This document shows positions 21,937 through 31,957 of a stretch of 46,684 nucleotides of DNA, in pieces. Position numbers and translations under genes: made by a program. The stretch comes from Synechococcales cyanobacterium GL140_1_metabinner_5_sub (lineage in GTDB: Bacteria > Cyanobacteriota > Cyanobacteriia > Cyanobacteriales > Chamaesiphonaceae). Every line of letters starts with the position of its first letter. The stretch's first letter is position 1. The stretch is taken from positions 1 to 46,684 of the forward strand of contig JANYHM010000030.1 in assembly GCA_025359065.1 (NCBI GenBank), read 5' to 3'. The notes beneath the pieces are model-generated. The model ran no database searches and had not been told where the DNA came from. It saw only the letters and a list, made by a program, of their open reading frames with translations.

Positions 21937-21993
21937 GGTTAAGCACAAGAAACTCAATATCTTTAAGTCTAATCGCAGACTTTAGCAGATTAA

Positions 21994-23031
21994 CTATTTT
22001 TCGATACCCAGCCAATCTTGAGGCTTCAAGTAAGTTTTATACAGCTCTGCTTCTGGGCTGTTTGGCTCAGGCTGATAACCATATTCCCAGCGTACTGCTG
22101 GTGGCAAGGACATTAAAATAGACTCGGTGCGACCATTGGTTTGCAGGCCAAAAATTGTGCCCCGATCGTACACCAAGTTAAATTCTACATACCGCCCTCG
22201 GCGATAGGTCTGAAAATTTCGCTCTCGATCGCCGTAAGGAGTATCTTTGCGCTTCTCCACGATCGGCTTGTAGGCAGCCACAAACGACTGGGCACAATCC
22301 TGGGCAAAAGCAAAAATATGATCCCAGTTCCGAGCTGGCTGCTCACCGATCGACTTACTATATTGTGCGGCTGGACTATCGGGCTTGTCCCCGCGATAAA
22401 ACTCGCCCGCTAAACTGTCTTGATAGTCAAAAAACAAACCGCCCACACCTCTGGTCTCATCTCGGTGGGGTAGGTAAAAATATTCGTCACACCACCGCTT
22501 AAAAGTGGGGTAATAGTTGGGGTTGTGCCGATCGCAAGCGTCCTTCAGAGTCTGATGCAGGTGCTTCACATCTTCAATAAAAGGGTAGTAAGGGGTTAAA
22601 TCCAAACCGCCACCAAACCACCAAACAGGTCCAGCTTCAAAATAGCGGTAGTTTAAATGCACCGTTGGAATGTAGGGGTTATGGGGGTGCAGCACCATCG
22701 AAGTACCAGTCGCGTAAAAACGATGACCGGCTGCTTCGGGGCGCTGCTTGAGAATCGAAGGTGGCAGATTATCTCCCCACACCTCCGAAAAATTCACCCC
22801 GCCCTGTTCAAACACGTTGCCACTCCTGATCACCCGAGAACGGCCACCGCCGCCCTCTGGACGAGTCCAGGAATCCTCCCGAAACTCACCTCCGCCATCT
22901 GCGTCTTCCAGCTCTTTACAGATCACATTTTGAATCTGTTGCATAAACCCGCTCACACGAGTTTTGGCATCGAGAGGTGGCAGCGTGTCAGGGTTAACTG
23001 ACGTAGCAGGGGCGGTGGAGCTGGAGGTCAT
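21994..23031 (-). CDS. hemF: Aerobic coproporphyrinogen III oxidase
   Basis: A 345-residue oxygen-dependent enzyme that decarboxylates coproporphyrinogen III to protoporphyrinogen IX for heme and chlorophyll. Signature segments are [52 protein letters not shown] and [15 protein letters not shown]. The length agrees with the family. The ATG at 23031 is preferred over a TTG 11 codons upstream. Like acsF, this is an O2-requiring tetrapyrrole step. Confidence 0.95.
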
Positions 23032-23450
23032 AAGATAATTTTCGGACTTAATTAATTTTCGCAATTCTGGAGTGAGTACTTATGCTTATAGGGCAATAAA
23101 AACTTTAGCAGAATTGAGCTGGGATCTAGTGTCCGTGCTATGAGTAATATACTTTGGGAGCCTCTCATTTTGCAGAGATCTTTACAAAACATTACCTAAT
23201 TTTGCAGTGAGACTTTAAAAATATTCAAAAGTGGCAATCGAATACCAGATCAGCGATCCCCGGCCACAGCTCAGAATCCGCCGCCCATCAAAGATAACGA
23301 AATATCAACTGGGCAAAGAATATCCAGAATGGCTGAGTTAGACTAGGTGCCATTGGTGGAAGATCAGGGTTGCACGTTACCAAGTTACCTCGATGAGAAG
23401 CCGACCGCAAACAAAGCTGTCTTAAACCAGAGCGCAGGCAAGAATTTTTT
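23032..23450. other. Divergent hemF/ndhD intergenic region
   Basis: About 420 bp. A short open stretch (about 23231-23342, 36 codons) has no recognisable identity. No tRNA, hairpin terminator or repeat was found. It presumably holds the two divergent promoters; TATACT at 23149-23154 is a possible plus-strand -10. Confidence 0.4.
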
Positions 23451-25028
23451 ATGACTGATTTCCCTTGGTTAACGACTATTATTATGTTCCCGATCGTTGC
23501 GGCAACGGCAATTCCATTTTTGCCCGACGAAAAAGGCCGTACCGTTCGCTGGTATTCACTAATCGTCGCCCTGATCGATTTTGCGATTATTGTCTATGCC
23601 TTCATCAACCACTACGATGTCCATAATCCTGGGATGCAGATGGTGGAAAGCTATACCTGGGTGCCTCAAATCGACCTGAAGTGGTCGGTGGCGGTGGATG
23701 GTTTGTCGATGCCGCTGGTGCTGCTGACTGGCTTTATAACTACCTTGGCTACCTTGGCAGCTTGGCCAGTGACTTATAAACCCAAGCTTTTTTACTTTTT
23801 AATGCTGGTGATGTACGGCGGTCAAGTCGCAGTATTCGCTGTGCAAGATATGCTGCTGTTCTTCTTGGTATGGGAGTTAGAGCTACTGCCAGTCTATTTA
23901 TTTCTGTCAATTTGGGGCGGTAAAAAGCGCCTCTATGCTTCTACTAAGTTCATTTTGTACACCGCTGGCGGCTCACTGTTTATTTTGATTGCTGCGCTAG
24001 CCATGGGCTTTTATGGTGGCACTACCACTTTCGATATGCAGGCGTTAGCCCATAAAGACTATGCCTTAAACTTCCAGCTTTTTATGTATGGGGGCTTGCT
24101 AATTGCCTACGGCGTGAAGCTGCCGATTATTCCTTTGCATACCTGGCTGCCCGATGCCCATGGGGAAGCCACTGCACCAGTTCACATGCTGCTGGCCGGG
24201 ATCTTGCTCAAGATGGGTGGCTACGCCCTGATTCGGATGAATGCCGAAATGCTGCCGGCGGCTCATGCTGCGTTTGCGCCAGCACTAGTGGTGCTGGGGG
24301 TGGTGAATATTGTCTACGCTGCCTTAACTTCCTTTGCTCAAAGAAATCTGAAGCGCAAGATTGCCTATTCTTCGATTTCTCACATGGGTTTTGTATTGAT
24401 TGGGATCGCCTCTTTTACCGAATTAGGAATGAGTGGAGCCTTGCTACAAATGGTTTCCCACGGATTGATTGGAGCCAGCTTGTTCTTCTTGGTCGGTGCT
24501 ACTTACGATCGAACTCACACCTTAATGCTGGATGAAATGGGTGGCGTAGGCCAAAAGATGACCAAGATCTTCGCCATGTTCACCACCTGCTCGATGGCCT
24601 CTTTGGCCTTACCGGGCATGAGCGGTTTCGTTGCCGAACTAATGATCTTTGTTGGTTTTGCCACTAGCGATGCTTACAACGACCAGTTCAAGCTGGTAAT
24701 GATTATACTGATGGCCGTCGGGATCATTCTGACTCCGATTTATTTGCTGTCGATGCTGCGTGAAATTTTCTTTGGCAAAGAAAACAAAGAGCTGGTTGCC
24801 CACGAAGCACTGATTGATGCTGAGCCGCGCGAAATTTTTATCATTGCTTGCTTGTTGGTGCCAATTATCGGTGTAGGTTGCTATCCCAAGATCTTGACCC
24901 AGATCTATGATTCCACCACGGTTCAGTTGACAGCCCACCTGCGAGAATCGGTACCCACTATTGCTCATCGAGCTTTACCGGCATCGATCGCCTTTTCAGC
25001 ACCAGATATCAAAAAAGCTCTCAAATAG
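23451..25028 (+). CDS. ndhD: NAD(P)H dehydrogenase (NDH-1) subunit 4, NdhD1-like
   Basis: A 525-residue antiporter-like membrane subunit of the photosynthetic NDH-1 complex, which couples electron flow from ferredoxin to plastoquinone with proton pumping in thylakoids. It has about 14 helices. Conserved segments include [21 protein letters not shown] (with the key helix-5 Glu), [21 protein letters not shown] and [16 protein letters not shown]. It looks like a respiratory/cyclic-flow NdhD1/D2 type rather than the CO2-uptake NdhD3/4; this subtype call is tentative. ndhF is not adjacent. Confidence 0.93.
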
Positions 25029-25071
25029 CCGCTAAGTTGATGGTTCGGTTCGACTCCTACCACATATGTCT

Positions 25072-25108
25072 TTTAACGGTTGGTAAGCGTAGCCGAACCA
25101 CCGTTAAA
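25072..25108. terminator. Terminator between convergent ndhD and aminotransferase
   Basis: Arms TTTAACGGTTGGT and ACCACCGTTAAA pair with one bulge. A competing stem TGGTTCGG (25041-25048) / CCGAACCA (25093-25100) is also possible. Confidence 0.6.
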
Positions 25109-26270
25109 TTAACTCATGCACAAACTTCCCAATCCGCTCCATGCCTCTCTCGATCGTCTCTAAATCTGTGGCATAAGAAAGCCGGATATGGTCATCAGCC
25201 CCAAAGGGCAAGCCGGGGATTGCCGCTACCTGCTGTGATTCCAACAATCTTTGGCAAAACTCCAAAGAACTTAAGCCCGATCGACGAATATTCACAAATA
25301 CATAAAAAGCCCCATCTGGCTTGGCGCAATCTAAGCCAGGAATCGCCTTCAACATCTGTAAAATCACTTCTCGACGGCGACTAAAAGCCTGCAACATGTC
25401 TGATACACATTCCTGAGAACCAGCCAAAGCTGCGATGGCTCCATACTGAGCAAAGGTACAAACATTAGAAGTACTATGTCCCTGAATCATGCTGGCGGCT
25501 CTAATTAACTCCGTTGGTCCTGCTAAGTACCCTACTCGCCAACCGGTCATAGAATAAGCCTTTGCAAAACCACTGCTGATGATCGTGCGATCAAAGATCT
25601 CTTTACCTAAAGAACCAATACTGACGTGCTCGATCCCGTCATAAATAATCTTGGCGTATATTTCGTCAGATACCACCAATATATCGTGTTCTACGATCAC
25701 CGCCGCTAAAGCAGTCAACTCGGCACGAGTGTAGACCACTCCGCTAGGATTAGAGGGAGAATTTAAAATCAGCAGCTTAGTCTTACTGGTAATACTTGCT
25801 GCCAAAAGTTCTGGCGAAATTTTATAGTTGGTGCTGGCATCGGTATGGACAATGACCGGAGTACCATCAGCTAATCGCACCATCTCGGGATAACTCAGCC
25901 AAAAAGGTGCTGGAATAATTACTTCATCTCCCGGATTCAGCAGCACCATCATTAAATTAAACAGCGAATGCTTGCCGCCATTGGTTACCAAAATATTGGC
26001 GGCTTGGTAATTTAACTGTACTTCCCGCTGCATTTGCTGGGCGATTGCCTCCCTTAAGGCTGGTTCACCCGCCGCCGCGCCATATTTGGTTTTTCCCATA
26101 GCCAGAGCGGCGGCAGCGGCAGCTTTAATATGCTCTGGTGTATCAAAATCCGGTTCCCCAGCGCTAAAACTGCAAACATCAATTCCACTAGCTTGCATAG
26201 CTTTGGCCTGCGCGGAAATGGCGAGGGTGACAGAAGGCTTGACCTCTCTGGTGCGATGTGCCAATTCCAT
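25104..26270 (-). CDS. aspC: Aspartate aminotransferase (class I PLP)
   Basis: A 388-residue fold-type I PLP aminotransferase of the Ib subgroup. Conserved features are [57 protein letters not shown] and the PLP-lysine segment [17 protein letters not shown], with the substrate Arg in HIRLSYA. It interconverts aspartate and oxaloacetate; some members also act on prephenate. The ATG at 26270 ([13 protein letters not shown]) is chosen because the family begins there. Confidence 0.88.
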
Positions 26271-26424
26271 AACTGATCGATGCCCTCCCACGGCGCTGGT
26301 CTTTTCGGACGCTATTTGCTAATCATGCCCGAGCTTAGCCATTATAGACCTTGTGCGAGTGAATTTTTGCCATTTTTACAGCAAATTCCCGCCTATTTGT
26401 TTTTTTGCATCCACCCAAATCACT

Positions 26425-26814
26425 ATGTTTAATTATTCTGCCGCCTTGGTGACGATCGCCGCCATAGATTTCGATCGACTTTTAGCTTTTTATTCTGTCT
26501 TGCTCCAACAGTCACCCCAGCCCTATCAACCCAATGTCTATGGTGGTTTTAAAGTAGCCGGAGTTGATTTAGGCATCTTTCAACCCAAAGCTGGCAGCAA
26601 GGAGTTTGCTCCGCAAACTGCCCAACCGATTTCGGGTGCTGTTAGTCTTTGCCTATCGGTGGACAACCTAGAAAAAGCCCTGGAACACTTAGCTACTAAT
26701 GGCTACCCCCAAACCTCAACGGTGTTAAATGCCAGTCATGGCCGGGAATGTTACATATACGATCCTGACGGCAATCGGATTATTTTGCATCAGGGTCAAA
26801 AACTGACTCGTTGA
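26425..26814 (+). CDS. VOC/glyoxalase-fold protein
   Basis: A 129-residue protein of the vicinal oxygen chelate superfamily: LVTIAAIDFDRLLAFYSVLL at the N terminus and the C-terminal YIYDPDGNRIILHQ strand with the conserved Asp-Pro-Asp-Gly-Asn. VOC proteins include dioxygenases, lyases and resistance proteins; the substrate cannot be deduced. The ATG at 26425 is chosen because upstream in-frame sequence is not conserved-looking. It lies ~105 bp before kaiA. Confidence 0.8.
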   Translation: MFNYSAALVTIAAIDFDRLLAFYSVLLQQSPQPYQPNVYGGFKVAGVDLGIFQPKAGSKEFAPQTAQPISGAVSLCLSVDNLEKALEHLATNGYPQTSTVLNASHGRECYIYDPDGNRIILHQGQKLTR

Positions 26815-26918
26815 CTTAATTAATTTGCTGGCTGGCTCTAGGTTGAACAGCTTAAGTTTCTATGAATTTTCTGTAAATTTTATGTGATATCATTAAGATT
26901 AATTTAGCGTAAATTAGC

Positions 26919-27758
26919 TTGTCTGCCCTCCTTACCATTGCGATTTCGGTAAAGTCACCTCAGCTTTTGCAACAACTACGTGCAGCCCTGAGCGATGGCC
27001 GCTATGTTCTGAAAGAGTTAGAAAGCGGTGAAGATTTGCTGCGATTAGTTGGTAGTCGCAAGCCAGAAATTGATTGCTTGGTGTTAGAAGTAGATGATGA
27101 ATTATTGGTTAGCGTTAGTGCCCTACGCGAGCAAAGCACTATCCTGCCGGTAGTTTTTGTTACTGGCTCTAATACTCCGCCGTTACCCCCACCGCTCTAT
27201 CACTCCTCGGAAGTCACCATTTCGCCAGATAAAGTGGTGGTCTTGGACAAGTCGATCGAGCGTGCCATTGCCGAATTTTTATCCTTAGCCCCAGCCGTTG
27301 AGCAACTAAGCTGCCCCCTGCCCGATTTAAAATCGATCGCTTTTTTGCTTCAACAGCAGCGTCGCCTCACCGAAAAACTTAAAGAGCGTTTAGGCTATTT
27401 AGCGGTTTATTACAATCGCAATTCTGAACACTTTTTCCGCAATCTTTCAACCGCAGAACGAGAGACGCTCTCCGCCCAGCTCAAGGTGCAGTACCACGAG
27501 ATTGTCTTGGCCTACTTTTCTCCTGAACTCAATCTCAATGACATGCTCGATGAGTTTGTCACTCTGCTGTTTTTTGCTGATCTTTCGGTATCCGAAGTAG
27601 TAGAGCTACACATGGAGCTGATGGAAGAATTCTCTAAACAGCTCAAACTAGAAGGTTGGAGCGAAGATGTCTTGTTAGACTATCGCCTCACTTTAATTGA
27701 TGTCATTGCCCATCTATGCGAAATGTATCGCCGATCGGTGCCCCGCGAAAGAAATTAG
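26919..27758 (+). CDS. kaiA: Circadian clock protein KaiA
   Basis: Full-length 279-residue KaiA, which stimulates KaiC autophosphorylation. The N-terminal pseudo-receiver domain (~1-135) lacks a normal phospho-acceptor context. The C-terminal four-helix KaiC-binding domain (~165-279) includes YHEIVLAYFSPELNLNDMLDEFV and VVELHMELMEEFSKQL. The best start is TTG 26919 (MSALLTIAISVKSPQ), since no ATG fits. It is separated from kaiB by 380 bp and is probably transcribed on its own. Confidence 0.95.
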   Translation: MSALLTIAISVKSPQLLQQLRAALSDGRYVLKELESGEDLLRLVGSRKPEIDCLVLEVDDELLVSVSALREQSTILPVVFVTGSNTPPLPPPLYHSSEVTISPDKVVVLDKSIERAIAEFLSLAPAVEQLSCPLPDLKSIAFLLQQQRRLTEKLKERLGYLAVYYNRNSEHFFRNLSTAERETLSAQLKVQYHEIVLAYFSPELNLNDMLDEFVTLLFFADLSVSEVVELHMELMEEFSKQLKLEGWSEDVLLDYRLTLIDVIAHLCEMYRRSVPRERN

Positions 27759-28138
27759 CGATTGTTAGTTTAGCGATTGACGGTGGAGAATCAAAGCTTC
27801 ACACAATCTTAATCCAGCCTGAAAGCCATAGTAACAGCAGCGATCGTTTGAAGCTGGTCACCAGGTATTTTAGTGGCTCAAAGTACTAATACTTATAATG
27901 TTTTAAGAAATGATAAGTTGATTGACTGCTAGAATCGGAACATTGAGATGCAACGTTTTTGTAACAATTCCTAGGTCACTGCTGTTTCTAGCGGAGTCTG
28001 GATGGGATAATCAAAACAATTTTTGCTAGTTCTGGCTACTTGCCAGTCTTCATGATTTTGTCTGCATCCCAAGTCCAAGCTTGTCCCATTACAAACATTG
28101 CTTGGGTCTGACCAAATAAGTACAAAAAGCGATCATTT
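27759..28138. promoter_or_regulatory. kaiA-kaiB intergenic region, probable kaiBC promoter
   Basis: 380 bp with no gene. It must contain the kaiBC promoter, by analogy to other cyanobacteria where kaiA and kaiBC are transcribed separately under RpaA control. I could not identify a definite binding site; TTTTTGTAACAATTCC near 27955-27970 is a direct-repeat-free AT-rich candidate. No terminator hairpin after kaiA was evident. Confidence 0.4.
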
Positions 28139-28447
28139 ATGAGTCCTCTAGCTAAAACTTACGTACTGAAACTATACGTGGCCGGTAACACTCCTAACTC
28201 GGTGCGGGCATTGCGCACCCTCAAAAACATTCTAGAAGAAGAGTTTCAAGGCGTTTATGCTCTGAAAGTAATTGATGTGTTAAAAAATCCCCAATTAGCC
28301 GAAGAAGATAAAATTTTGGCTACACCAACCTTAGCTAAGGTGCTACCGCCACCAGTGCGAAAAATCATTGGTGATTTATCCGATCGAGAGCGAGTCCTTA
28401 TTGGCTTAGACCTACTCTACGAAGAATTAGTAGAAGGTGGCTTTTAA
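28139..28447 (+). CDS. kaiB: Circadian clock protein KaiB
   Basis: A 102-residue fold-switching clock protein that binds phosphorylated KaiC, sequesters KaiA and recruits output kinases. Conserved segments are [40 protein letters not shown] and [20 protein letters not shown]. The start at ATG 28139 and the acidic C terminus (EELVEGGF) are typical. It is 99 bp upstream of kaiC, forming the kaiBC unit. Confidence 0.97.
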
Positions 28448-28546
28448 TAGAAAAACAGCAGACTATAAATATCTTTCGCCGCAAAAATTTTAATCTAAAA
28501 GCCTAATAAGTAAGCCAAATTACAAGTAAATTTCTCGAGTTTCCCA

Positions 28547-30142
28547 ATGACCATATCCAATTCCCTAGCCACCCCCGAAGAAAAAAATAATCCTTCCAGT
28601 ATTCAGACCATCACTACTTTGAACAATGATCTAGGGGTAAAAAAAATTCGCACTATGATCGAGGGCTTTGACGACATTTCCCATGGGGGATTGCCAGTAG
28701 GCCGCACCACGATCGTCAGCGGTACTTCTGGTACGGGCAAAACCATGTTGGCTGTGCAGTTTTTGTACAACGGCATCACCCAATTCGATGAGCCTGGCGT
28801 GTTCGTTACCTTTGAAGAATCGCCTGCCGATATCATTAAAAATGCTCATAGCTTTGGCTGGGATCTTCAGAGTTTAGTAGACCAAGGCAAGCTGTTTATT
28901 TTGGATGCTTCCCCCGATCCAGATGGCCAAGAAGTAATTGGGAGCTTTGATTTATCCGCGTTGATCGAGCGCATTCAATACGCCATCGGTAAATATAAGG
29001 CCAAACGAGTATCGGTAGATTCCATGACTGCTGTGTTTCAGCAATACGATGCTGCTTCGGTAGTCCGTCGGGAAGTGTTTCGGCTAGTGGCCAGACTGAA
29101 GCAAATGAATGCCACCACGATTATGACCACCGAGCGCCTAGATGAATACGGTCCAGTTGCTCGCTATGGGGTAGAAGAATTTGTCTCGGATAACGTAGTG
29201 ATTGCCCGTAACGTTTTAGAAGGAGAACGTCGTCGTAGAACGATCGAAATTCTTAAGCTGCGCGGTACCACTCATATGAAAGGGGAATATCCCTTCACTA
29301 TTACTAATAAAGGCATTAATATTTTCCCTTTGGGAGCCATGCGCCTTACTCAAAGATCTTCAAATGTGCGGGTATCTTCGGGAGTCAAAACCCTGGACGA
29401 AATGTGCGGTGGGGGCTTTTTCAAAGATTCGATTATTTTGGCAACTGGTGCCACGGGTACCGGCAAAACCTTGTTGGTCAGCAAATTTATTCAAGAAGCC
29501 TGCAACTCTGGCGAAAAAGCAATTCTATTTGCCTATGAAGAATCGCGAGCGCAGCTCTCCCGTAACGCCTACTCGTGGGGCACCGACTTTGAGGAAATGG
29601 AACGCAAGGGCTTACTCAAAATTCTTTGTACCTATCCTGAATCGGCTGGTTTAGAAGATCATCTGCAAACCATCAAGTCGGAAATCGAAGACTTTAAACC
29701 GGCCAGAATTGCGATCGACTCCCTATCAGCCTTAGCGCGGGGCGTAAGCAACAACGCTTTTCGTCAGTTCGTCATTGGAATCACCGGCTACGCCAAACAA
29801 GAAGAAATCACGGGCTTCTTTACCAACACCTCCGATCAGTTCATGGGTTCACACTCCATCACCGACTCCCATATTTCTACTATTACCGACACAATTTTGA
29901 TGTTGCAATATGTAGAAATTCGCGGCGAAATGTCTCGCGCTATCAACGTCTTCAAAATGCGCGGCTCTTGGCACGATAAAGGCATCCGCGAATACACTAT
30001 TAGCAAAGACGGTGCAGAAATCAAAGATTCTTTCCGTAACTATGAAGGTCTCATCAGCGGCTCCCCTAGCCGCATCACAGTGGACGAAAAGAGCGAATTA
30101 TCCCGCATTATGCGTGGCGTAAGAGACAAAGGCAGCGAATAG
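28547..30142 (+). CDS. kaiC: Circadian clock ATPase/kinase KaiC
   Basis: A 531-residue two-domain RecA-like clock protein. CI has Walker A GTSGTGKT (59-66) and catalytic Glu90/Glu91. CII has GATGTGKT (301-308) and EES (331-333). The phosphorylation pair Ser444/Thr445 in [13 protein letters not shown] corresponds to Ser431/Thr432 of Synechococcus elongatus; the offset of 13 comes from a longer N terminus. The C-terminal KaiA-binding tail ([20 protein letters not shown]) is intact. The stop is followed after 14 bp, including AGAGGAG, by an AAA ATPase. Confidence 0.98.
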
Positions 30143-30156
30143 AGGAGTCAACTTTA

Positions 30157-31260
30157 ATGGCTCGTTCCACCAAAAAAGCAGCTCCAACTATCCAACGCCC
30201 CCCTGCGGAAATTCTTCACGCCCTAGAACTCCAAAAACTGCAAGAGCGCGATGGGAAAGATCCGCGTCCTGCTAATTGGGTGCTCACCCCCCGATCGATC
30301 TTAGATTTTATCCTCGGCAACACGGCACTGGGCATCGAACCCAAGTTTGTTGGCAGCCGTAACTCGATCGAGCGCTGCATAGTTTCTTTAGCCACTAATC
30401 GAGGACTAATGCTCATTGGCGAACCGGGCACCGCTAAAAGCTACCTAAGTGAATTATTGGCAGCCGGGATTTGCGGTGACTCGACTCTCACGATCCAAGG
30501 TAGCGCAGGCACTACCGAAGATACTATGAAATATTCCTGGAACTATGCTTTGTTGCTAGCCGAAGGAGCCAGCGATCGATCACTAGTTCCTGCACCACTA
30601 CATCGGGGAATGGTGGCGGGCAAAATTGTGCGATTCGAGGAAATTACTCGCTGCCCATTGGAAATTCAGGACACTATGCTATCTATTTTAAGCGATCGAG
30701 TAATGGCAATTCCTGAGTTACCCGATGAAGGTCGCAACCTCTATGCTCAAATGGGTTTTAATGTCATTGCTACGGCCAACAGCCGCGATCGCGGGGTGAA
30801 CGAAATGAGCGCAGCTCTGAAACGACGCTTTAACTTTGAGACAATTGTGCCGATTAATAATTTGCCCCGCGAGTTAGAGCTGGTACAGCGTCAAACCGAT
30901 GCCCTGTTGGCACAATCAAATATCCCCATATCGCTACAGCCGGAATTAACAGAGCTATTGGTAACTACGTTCCACGAGTTGCGCACTGGCAAAACTACTG
31001 ATGGCAAGTCGCTGGAGCCTTTAACTACAGTGATGAGTACGGCGGAAGCTGTTTCGGTGGGACATGCAGCGGGGATTCATGGTTTCTATTACAATGATGG
31101 CCAGGTGGCGGCGCAGCATTTAGTCCAAAGTTTGCTGGGCAGCGCCATCAAAGATTCTCAAGATGATGTGAAAAAGCTGGGTCATTACTTCGATCGGGTA
31201 GTTAAAGATAAGCCGGGTGAACATTGGCAGCAGTATTACGCCGCCCGCAAATATCTTTAG
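30157..31260 (+). CDS. MoxR-like AAA ATPase, kaiC-linked
   Basis: A 367-residue AAA+ ATPase (AAA_5/MoxR-like): Walker [17 protein letters not shown] (~87-102), Walker B region [15 protein letters not shown], sensor 1 [16 protein letters not shown] and an Arg-rich LKRRFNFE segment. Such ATPases are usually encoded next to a VWA-domain partner and act as chaperones for complex or metal-cofactor assembly. No VWA gene follows here. Its start is 14 bp behind kaiC with a good ribosome-binding site, so it is probably co-transcribed with kaiBC. Whether it has any role in the clock is unknown. Confidence 0.85.
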
Positions 31261-31402
31261 TTATTTATTGATCTTGAGAATGACTCGATCAGAAAAATTT
31301 TCATTAAGTCTATAGTCAAAGTCTCGTTGTTTTGTGTCATTCCTTTATCCCTGGCATTTGCTATGAGTGCTAGGATTAGTACAGTTTTGGGATACACTAC
31401 AC

Positions 31403-31957
31403 ATGGCAATTTTACGGCTCACTGATGGCACCATTTACCACGATCGAGCAGATATCGATCGAGAGCTGGCTCCCCTAAACATTCAGCTCCAAGATTGGCC
31501 GATCAGTAATGATCCTGAATTGCTCAAGATCCTTGATCAACCCCAACTCAGTGCAGAGGATCACAATGTCGTCCTCGACCACCTCGATCACTATTTTGAG
31601 CAGCTTCGTGCCAGTGGCTACCAGATGCGAGATCTGATTGATCTGTATGCTAACTTGGTCGGACTAGATGCAATGCTTGCCCGGTTTAATCGATCGCATA
31701 CCCATGCTGATGATGAAGTGCGTTATGTGGTGGCTGGTGCCGGAATCTTTGGCTTTGTGCGCCCCGATCGATCCCAAATAGAACTTACCATCCAAGCCGC
31801 TGAACAAATCAATGTCCCTGCTGGCACCGAACACTGGTTTTGTCTTACACCCGAGCAGCGATTCGTTGCCCTGCGCTACTTCCGTGATACCAGCGGGTGG
31901 CATCCAAATTACCTCGACACGCCAATTCTTTTCCGGACGGCTCTAGCAAGCAAGTAG
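31403..31957 (+). CDS. mtnD: Acireductone dioxygenase
   Basis: A 184-residue cupin metalloenzyme of the methionine salvage pathway. It cleaves acireductone with O2 to formate and the 2-keto precursor of methionine (Fe form). Metal ligands are visible in HTHADDEVRYVV and the later His in PAGTEHWFCL. The ATG at 31403 (MAILRLTDG) is chosen; the frame continues upstream without similarity. No other mtn gene lies nearby. The EamA transporter starts 38 bp downstream. Confidence 0.93.
   Translation: MAILRLTDGTIYHDRADIDRELAPLNIQLQDWPISNDPELLKILDQPQLSAEDHNVVLDHLDHYFEQLRASGYQMRDLIDLYANLVGLDAMLARFNRSHTHADDEVRYVVAGAGIFGFVRPDRSQIELTIQAAEQINVPAGTEHWFCLTPEQRFVALRYFRDTSGWHPNYLDTPILFRTALASK

Follow-up and report, generated by a model that had tools for sequence, protein, structure and literature searches.

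Parts of PMC3893208 divide the MoxR proteins into seven subfamilies, YehL among them, and describe them as generally co-occurring with a VWA protein that is usually encoded close by; in a portion of PMC12691664, the MoxR under discussion is a member of a conflict-system cluster. Among the literature matches listed, none dealt with a linkage of yehL and kaiC or with a tested function of YehL, and DUF5682 returned no match. We examined a window of 46,684 nucleotides from Synechococcales cyanobacterium GL140_1_metabinner_5_sub, which is contig 47 of a 121-contig assembly of 3.92 Mb (99.84% complete). Profile matches in this window place kaiA, kaiB, kaiC and a MoxR-class ATPase gene in that order on one strand (Table 1), and the reading frame of the ATPase is intact.

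Table 1. Coordinates of the features discussed, in the window and, where a contig is named (C64, C84, C85), elsewhere in the same assembly
Feature	Position	Strand	Matches and remarks
kaiA	26919-27758	+	PF07688, PF21714
kaiB	28139-28447	+	TIGR02654, PF07689
kaiC, 531 aa	28547-30142	+	TIGR02655 (1034 bits), PF06745; upstream of yehL, possible source of read-through
kaiC-yehL junction, 14 bp	30143-30156	+	Shine-Dalgarno-like AGGAG at 30143-30147
yehL (367 aa), YehL-type AAA+ ATPase of the MoxR class	30157-31260	+	PF07728 (AAA_5), 116 bits, E 1.3e-33
ARD-family gene after yehL	31367-31957	+	PF03079; possible later start, ATG at 31404
VWA gene, YehP-like	C84:12188-13315 (match); frame C84:12185-13417		77% identity to L003 VWA; VWA_CoxE
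YehQ-like gene (SWIM-type)	C84:10249-12183		directly behind the VWA gene; 54% identity to L003 counterpart
DUF5682 gene, yehM	C84:54889-57246		62% identity to L003 counterpart
DUF4132 gene, yehI-like	C64:36893-39550		
Second set, DUF5691-ATPase-DUF5682-VWA	L126:6405-14418 (G000:C85)		contiguous

A sequence-only reading had placed a MoxR-like ATPase 14 bp after kaiC, with its own ribosome-binding site and no terminator in between, and in these respects it was borne out: coordinates, strand and the AAA_5 match agree, the AGGAG motif lies 9 nt before the ATG, and a consensus scan found neither promoter-like sites nor terminator-like sites on the + strand in the gap. Over the full scanned range (27700-31500) there was a single promoter-like site, at 29848 on the + strand within kaiC, and a single terminator-like site, on the - strand, both counts being below those in shuffled sequence. 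The missing terminator says little, because the same scan likewise found none downstream of kaiC in G388, a genome of the same genus in which the next gene is 165 bp away; its absence here thus permits read-through without indicating it. Short same-strand gaps of this kind are ordinary, as 7 of the 26 same-strand neighbors in a mechanical ORF set for the window, the kaiC-yehL pair included, are no more than 14 bp apart. Judged from the gene arrangement, co-transcription of yehL with kaiC is plausible. The ARD-family gene begins 106 bp beyond the end of yehL.

The ATPase shares 54% identity with Escherichia coli YehL over 356 of its 367 amino acids (E 2.5e-129), and its translation carries, at residues 88-95, a GEPGTAKS motif that we take to be Walker A. 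A quick tree, to be read with a warning for long branches, clusters it with the yehL of G390 and L003. Homology thus identifies the gene behind kaiC as yehL, encoding the AAA+ motor of a chaperone-like and widespread bacterial set, YehI-L-M-P-Q, a subfamily assignment made with E. coli YehL as its reference. No NCBIfam model reached its cut-off on the ATPase, with MadB and GvpN far below, and the only solved structure matching it was Midasin. We also considered a MoxR-vWA ternary conflict system (VMAP, iSTAND or beta-propeller type), which does not fit as judged by its MoxR profile and by the gene neighbors: the bpMoxR profile scored 19.3 bits against a cut-off of 27, and the genes neighboring the relatives are DUF4132, DUF5682, VWA and SWIM. 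The main text of PMC7159879, which treats such conflict systems, has no mention of YehL, DUF5682, SWIM or DUF4132. Membership in a known defense system was likewise set aside, as PADLOC matched none of five proteins, the DUF4132 protein among them being that of L005 and not that of this genome.

Searches identified 119 relatives of the ATPase, and the gene neighborhoods of the best 80 of these were counted in the DNA around each ATPase. A homolog of yehM or yehP is nearby in 51 of these 80, a VWA homolog in 49, and homologs of yehQ and of DUF4132/yehI in 36 each; kaiB or kaiC is near none. The recurring order, DUF4132-ATPase-DUF5682-VWA-SWIM, equals that of E. coli yehI-(yehK)-yehL-yehM-yehP-yehQ. 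The 29 loci that have no yehM or yehP homolog nearby comprise a gammaproteobacterial clade of 17 and 12 others, and four of the latter (L016, L018, L033 and L050) are contigs shorter than 6 kb.

Several variants were seen among these relatives. In the clade of 17 (Halopseudomonas, Zhongshania, Porticoccus and others, between L051 and L072, for example L061:5683-7974), none has a yehM, yehP or yehQ homolog beside yehL, which instead lies directly behind a member of one gene family; two of the 17 loci were scanned for domains, and in both the upstream gene encodes a PCMT-MshEN-T2SSE fusion ATPase. Asgard archaea (Lokiarchaeota and Sigynarchaeota; L077, L078, L080 and L081) carry a YehL-type ATPase with DUF5682 and VWA homologs, in each case preceded by a common gene of 380-394 amino acids. 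At L188:4556-8296 (G427:C28), the DUF5682 (YehM) and VWA (YehP) matches lie in a single open frame of 1246 amino acids, and frames of 1156-1375 amino acids in the same place at L021, L028, L032, L034 and L065 may, judging by length, be the same YehM-YehP fusion. The genome of L004 has a yehL that lacks a yeh neighbor, and its VWA is on another contig, in one 1246-amino-acid frame with DUF5682.

The sequence-only reading had also held that the VWA partner usual for MoxR ATPases was missing, which is correct for the neighborhood and incorrect for the genome. Using the proteins encoded beside the 81%-identical ATPase of L003 as queries, we found on contig 84 a YehP-like VWA gene, a YehQ-like gene directly behind it and a DUF5682 gene. 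In all, the yeh set is spread over four places: yehL behind kaiC, yehP with yehQ and, apart from these, yehM on C84, and a yehI-like gene on C64. Relative to their E. coli counterparts, identities are 53% for YehP, 33% for YehM, 32% for YehI and 26% for YehQ. The VWA protein carries a MIDAS-type motif, DESGS (DxSxS). In the YehQ-like protein, both CxC..CxH motifs of YehQ recur at equivalent positions, although the Pfam SWIM domain was not called in it. The tie of the C64 gene to the set is less sure, because DUF4132 genes are present in several copies. Given the fitting VWA on C84, we rejected the idea of an orphan MoxR without a VWA.

The possibility that all the dispersed yeh pieces sit tightly behind unrelated genes was dropped as well, the spacing being too soft given likely later starts. 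The longest frame of yehM begins immediately behind the lepA stop, with no base in between (L125:5994-10253, G000:C84), and its true start is possibly some codons later; the match to YehM begins at residue 31, versus residue 9 of E. coli YehM. The longest frame of yehP starts 32 bp after a flavodiiron-type gene. Its relatives match from residue 34, with an ATG at residue 35, and the start suggested by homology, which is the more likely one, would leave a gap of about 134 bp.

A second MoxR-type set, on C85, has a GmrSD-type (type IV restriction) gene behind it on the same strand. The ATPase of this set shares 46% identity with the YehL behind kaiC and falls in a different clade of the quick tree, and its VWA is 32-35% identical to the fitting VWAs, so we discarded it as a source of partners for YehL.

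To follow YehL and YehP across cyanobacteria, we used a panel of 388 cyanobacterial genomes, this one included, and defined close YehL by an identity of at least 56% and close YehP by at least 47%, cuts placed at gaps in the identity lists and chosen after viewing them. Each is present in 16 of the 388 genomes and both together in 14, an overlap with a Fisher p of 9e-22 when the genomes are treated as independent and kinship is ignored. The ATPase occurs alone in G093 (62% complete) and G166, and the VWA alone in G244 and G070 (68% complete). In G047 and G098, a single contig carries yehL and yehP with some 2 to 2.7 Mb between them; in this genome (G000), G111 and G365, they are on separate contigs, those of G365 being short and its distance uninformative. 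Within family f1, this genome and G390 carry both close YehL and close YehP; neither is present in the remaining nine, a few of which are incomplete assemblies. The pair thus stays together in genomes though often unlinked, which is evidence that YehL and YehP work together.

KaiC is distributed quite differently, being found at an E-value threshold of 1e-200 in 364 of the 388 genomes, compared with 16 for close YehL. Three genomes that have close YehL and YehP (G047, G083 and G291) gave no KaiC match. Two of them, G083 and G047, the latter complete in a single contig, belong to family f29 and are probably kin of Gloeobacter, a group not known to carry kai genes. G291 is 82% complete, so that its missing KaiC may be a gap. 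Among this genome and 59 relatives, 57 of 60 have KaiC, and the kaiC loci of 30 of these 57 were read, this one included, with that of G391 offering only 122 bp downstream. The sequence-only reading had named conservation of the kaiC-ATPase linkage in other genomes as a check, and the check came out negative: yehL follows kaiC in none of the 28 other informative loci, each covering about 1.1 to 6 kb downstream, and a functional reading of the linkage fails for the genomes examined. Conversely, neither kaiB nor kaiC was present at 29 further cyanobacterial yehL-type loci (L083-L111, 15 with close YehL and 14 of a 45%-identical kind) within flanks of at most 1.5 kb. The linkage is therefore seen, among the genomes examined, in this one only, and we rejected yehL as a conserved kai neighbor since no other has it beside kai.

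The same-genus genome G388 has a KaiC 98% identical to that encoded here, and its kaiBC DNA is 87% identical. Its DNA is syntenic with positions 21981-30141 of the window, the match ending at the kaiC stop, and the gene 165 bp behind kaiC is rlmN. The synteny block that includes the ARD gene is on another contig, from G388:C30:9066 onward. Just after pheA and before a KAP-type NTPase gene on that contig, 2.4 kb before the ARD gene, lies what is left of yehL, 24 codons from its 3' end (L186:4565-4636; 87.5% identity, E 1e-9, equaled in 0 of 1,000 shuffles). Neither close YehL nor close YehP is present in G388, which has only hits of 47% and 35% belonging to the other set; kaiABC has been kept and yehL destroyed. 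Behind the G388 kaiC, 12 of 14 bases resemble the start-codon region of yehL, a likeness noticed by eye that would fit a history with a single break. We discounted it as a 5' remnant on shuffle tests: with the initial 40 bases of either side compared, 77 of 5,000 shuffles equaled it, and when the 165 bp gap was set against the opening 80 bases, the opening 314 or all of them, 387, 765 and 435 of 2,000 shuffles did so.

The simplest history to be read from these remains would be a single break in an ancestral kaiC-yehL-ARD order, with most of yehL lost in G388, though each lineage may instead have had its own events. The remnant suggests that the linkage may reach back as far as the genus itself, and so not be a very recent accident; at most, it was present in the ancestor that the genus shares. 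If the single-break history is true, the linkage predates the species and, as G388 shows, can disappear from a lineage that retains the clock.

We consider it most probable (about 0.8) that yehL is the motor of a Yeh set with dispersed partners and a passenger of the clock operon, not a part of the clock. Assembly with YehP in trans, read-through from kaiC and the status of passenger are what we infer from the evidence above. By analogy with MoxR/VWA pairs, for which parts of PMC3893208 and PMC9976466 serve as the model, a YehL ring would most likely use YehP, a VWA protein with a MIDAS motif, as its adaptor and remodel a client recruited through it, and YehM, YehQ and YehI would be further subunits or clients. 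Expression of yehL probably draws on kaiBC transcription and on its own ribosome-binding site, so its level may be rhythmic, and the dispersed machine may perhaps have only its motor under the clock promoter.

That possible rhythm is the starting point of an alternative that we regard as unlikely, in which yehL is kept behind kaiC for useful rhythmic expression and its product is a clock output: with the other Yeh parts constant, rationing of the motor would gate the YehL-YehP machine by time of day, and contact with Kai proteins would be unneeded. The 14 bp gap, the good ribosome-binding site and the lack of a visible terminator or promoter between the genes would all suit it, as would a single ancestral break, which would explain both the end of kai synteny in G388 and the remnant on the ARD side. 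Yet G388 has retained kai with its yehL destroyed, and the other informative kaiC loci, 0 of 28, do not share the linkage. The more specific proposal, that the linkage arose in the ancestor of the genus and that placing the motor alone under the clock promoter times the whole machine to one phase of the day, seems to us slightly more doubtful again.

The arrangement might also be an artifact, the assembly having wrongly joined two stretches at kaiC/yehL, given that the junction is present in this assembly of 121 contigs only and that the kaiC stop is precisely where synteny with G388 ends. However, the genes on both sides of the break are intact, the gap contains a Shine-Dalgarno sequence at good spacing, and the order yehL then ARD agrees with the position of the remnant in G388, which leaves such an error very improbable. 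Least credible of all is a component of the clock itself, an ATPase that remodels Kai complexes, for instance by dissociating KaiB from KaiC or exchanging KaiC subunits. The only points in its favor are that the genes are adjacent and that MoxR ATPases are chaperone-like; against them stand the sparse distribution of close yehL relative to KaiC (16 versus 364 of 388), the 3 of 16 genomes with no KaiC match, the pairing of yehL with yehP (14 of 16) and the absence of yehL behind kaiC in any other genome examined. The link to Kai complex remodeling suggested in the sequence-only reading is accordingly unsupported.

With yehL as a passenger motor, a guessed clock chaperone is replaced by a named, widespread and little-studied machine, and the dispersal of the set makes it simple to test whether YehL and YehP function in trans. 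Clock research can take a warning from the case, since a gene that lies tightly beside kaiC in a single genome does not thereby give evidence of a role in the clock.

The closest known counterpart is yehI-yehK-yehL-yehM-yehP-yehQ of E. coli MG1655 (NC_000913.3 2200279-2210944), all five protein types of which are matched here, the ATPase and the VWA at 53-54% identity. The E. coli genes are clustered, whereas here they occupy four places, one of them directly behind kaiC. Planctomycetota, Myxococcota and other cyanobacteria likewise have the DUF4132-ATPase-DUF5682-VWA-SWIM set, or parts of it, contiguous where this genome has it dispersed, and yeh-type sets with an ATPase 66-81% identical to the YehL described here are present at L003, L005, L008 (Gloeobacterales) and L009. 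The C85 set is similar to yeh in architecture, but it has DUF5691 in place of DUF4132, is contiguous and has a GmrSD-type gene behind it. RavA-ViaA and NorQ-NorD, as presented in sections of PMC3893208 and PMC9976466, also combine an AAA+ ATPase with a VWA partner, and they represent other MoxR subfamilies with known associates.
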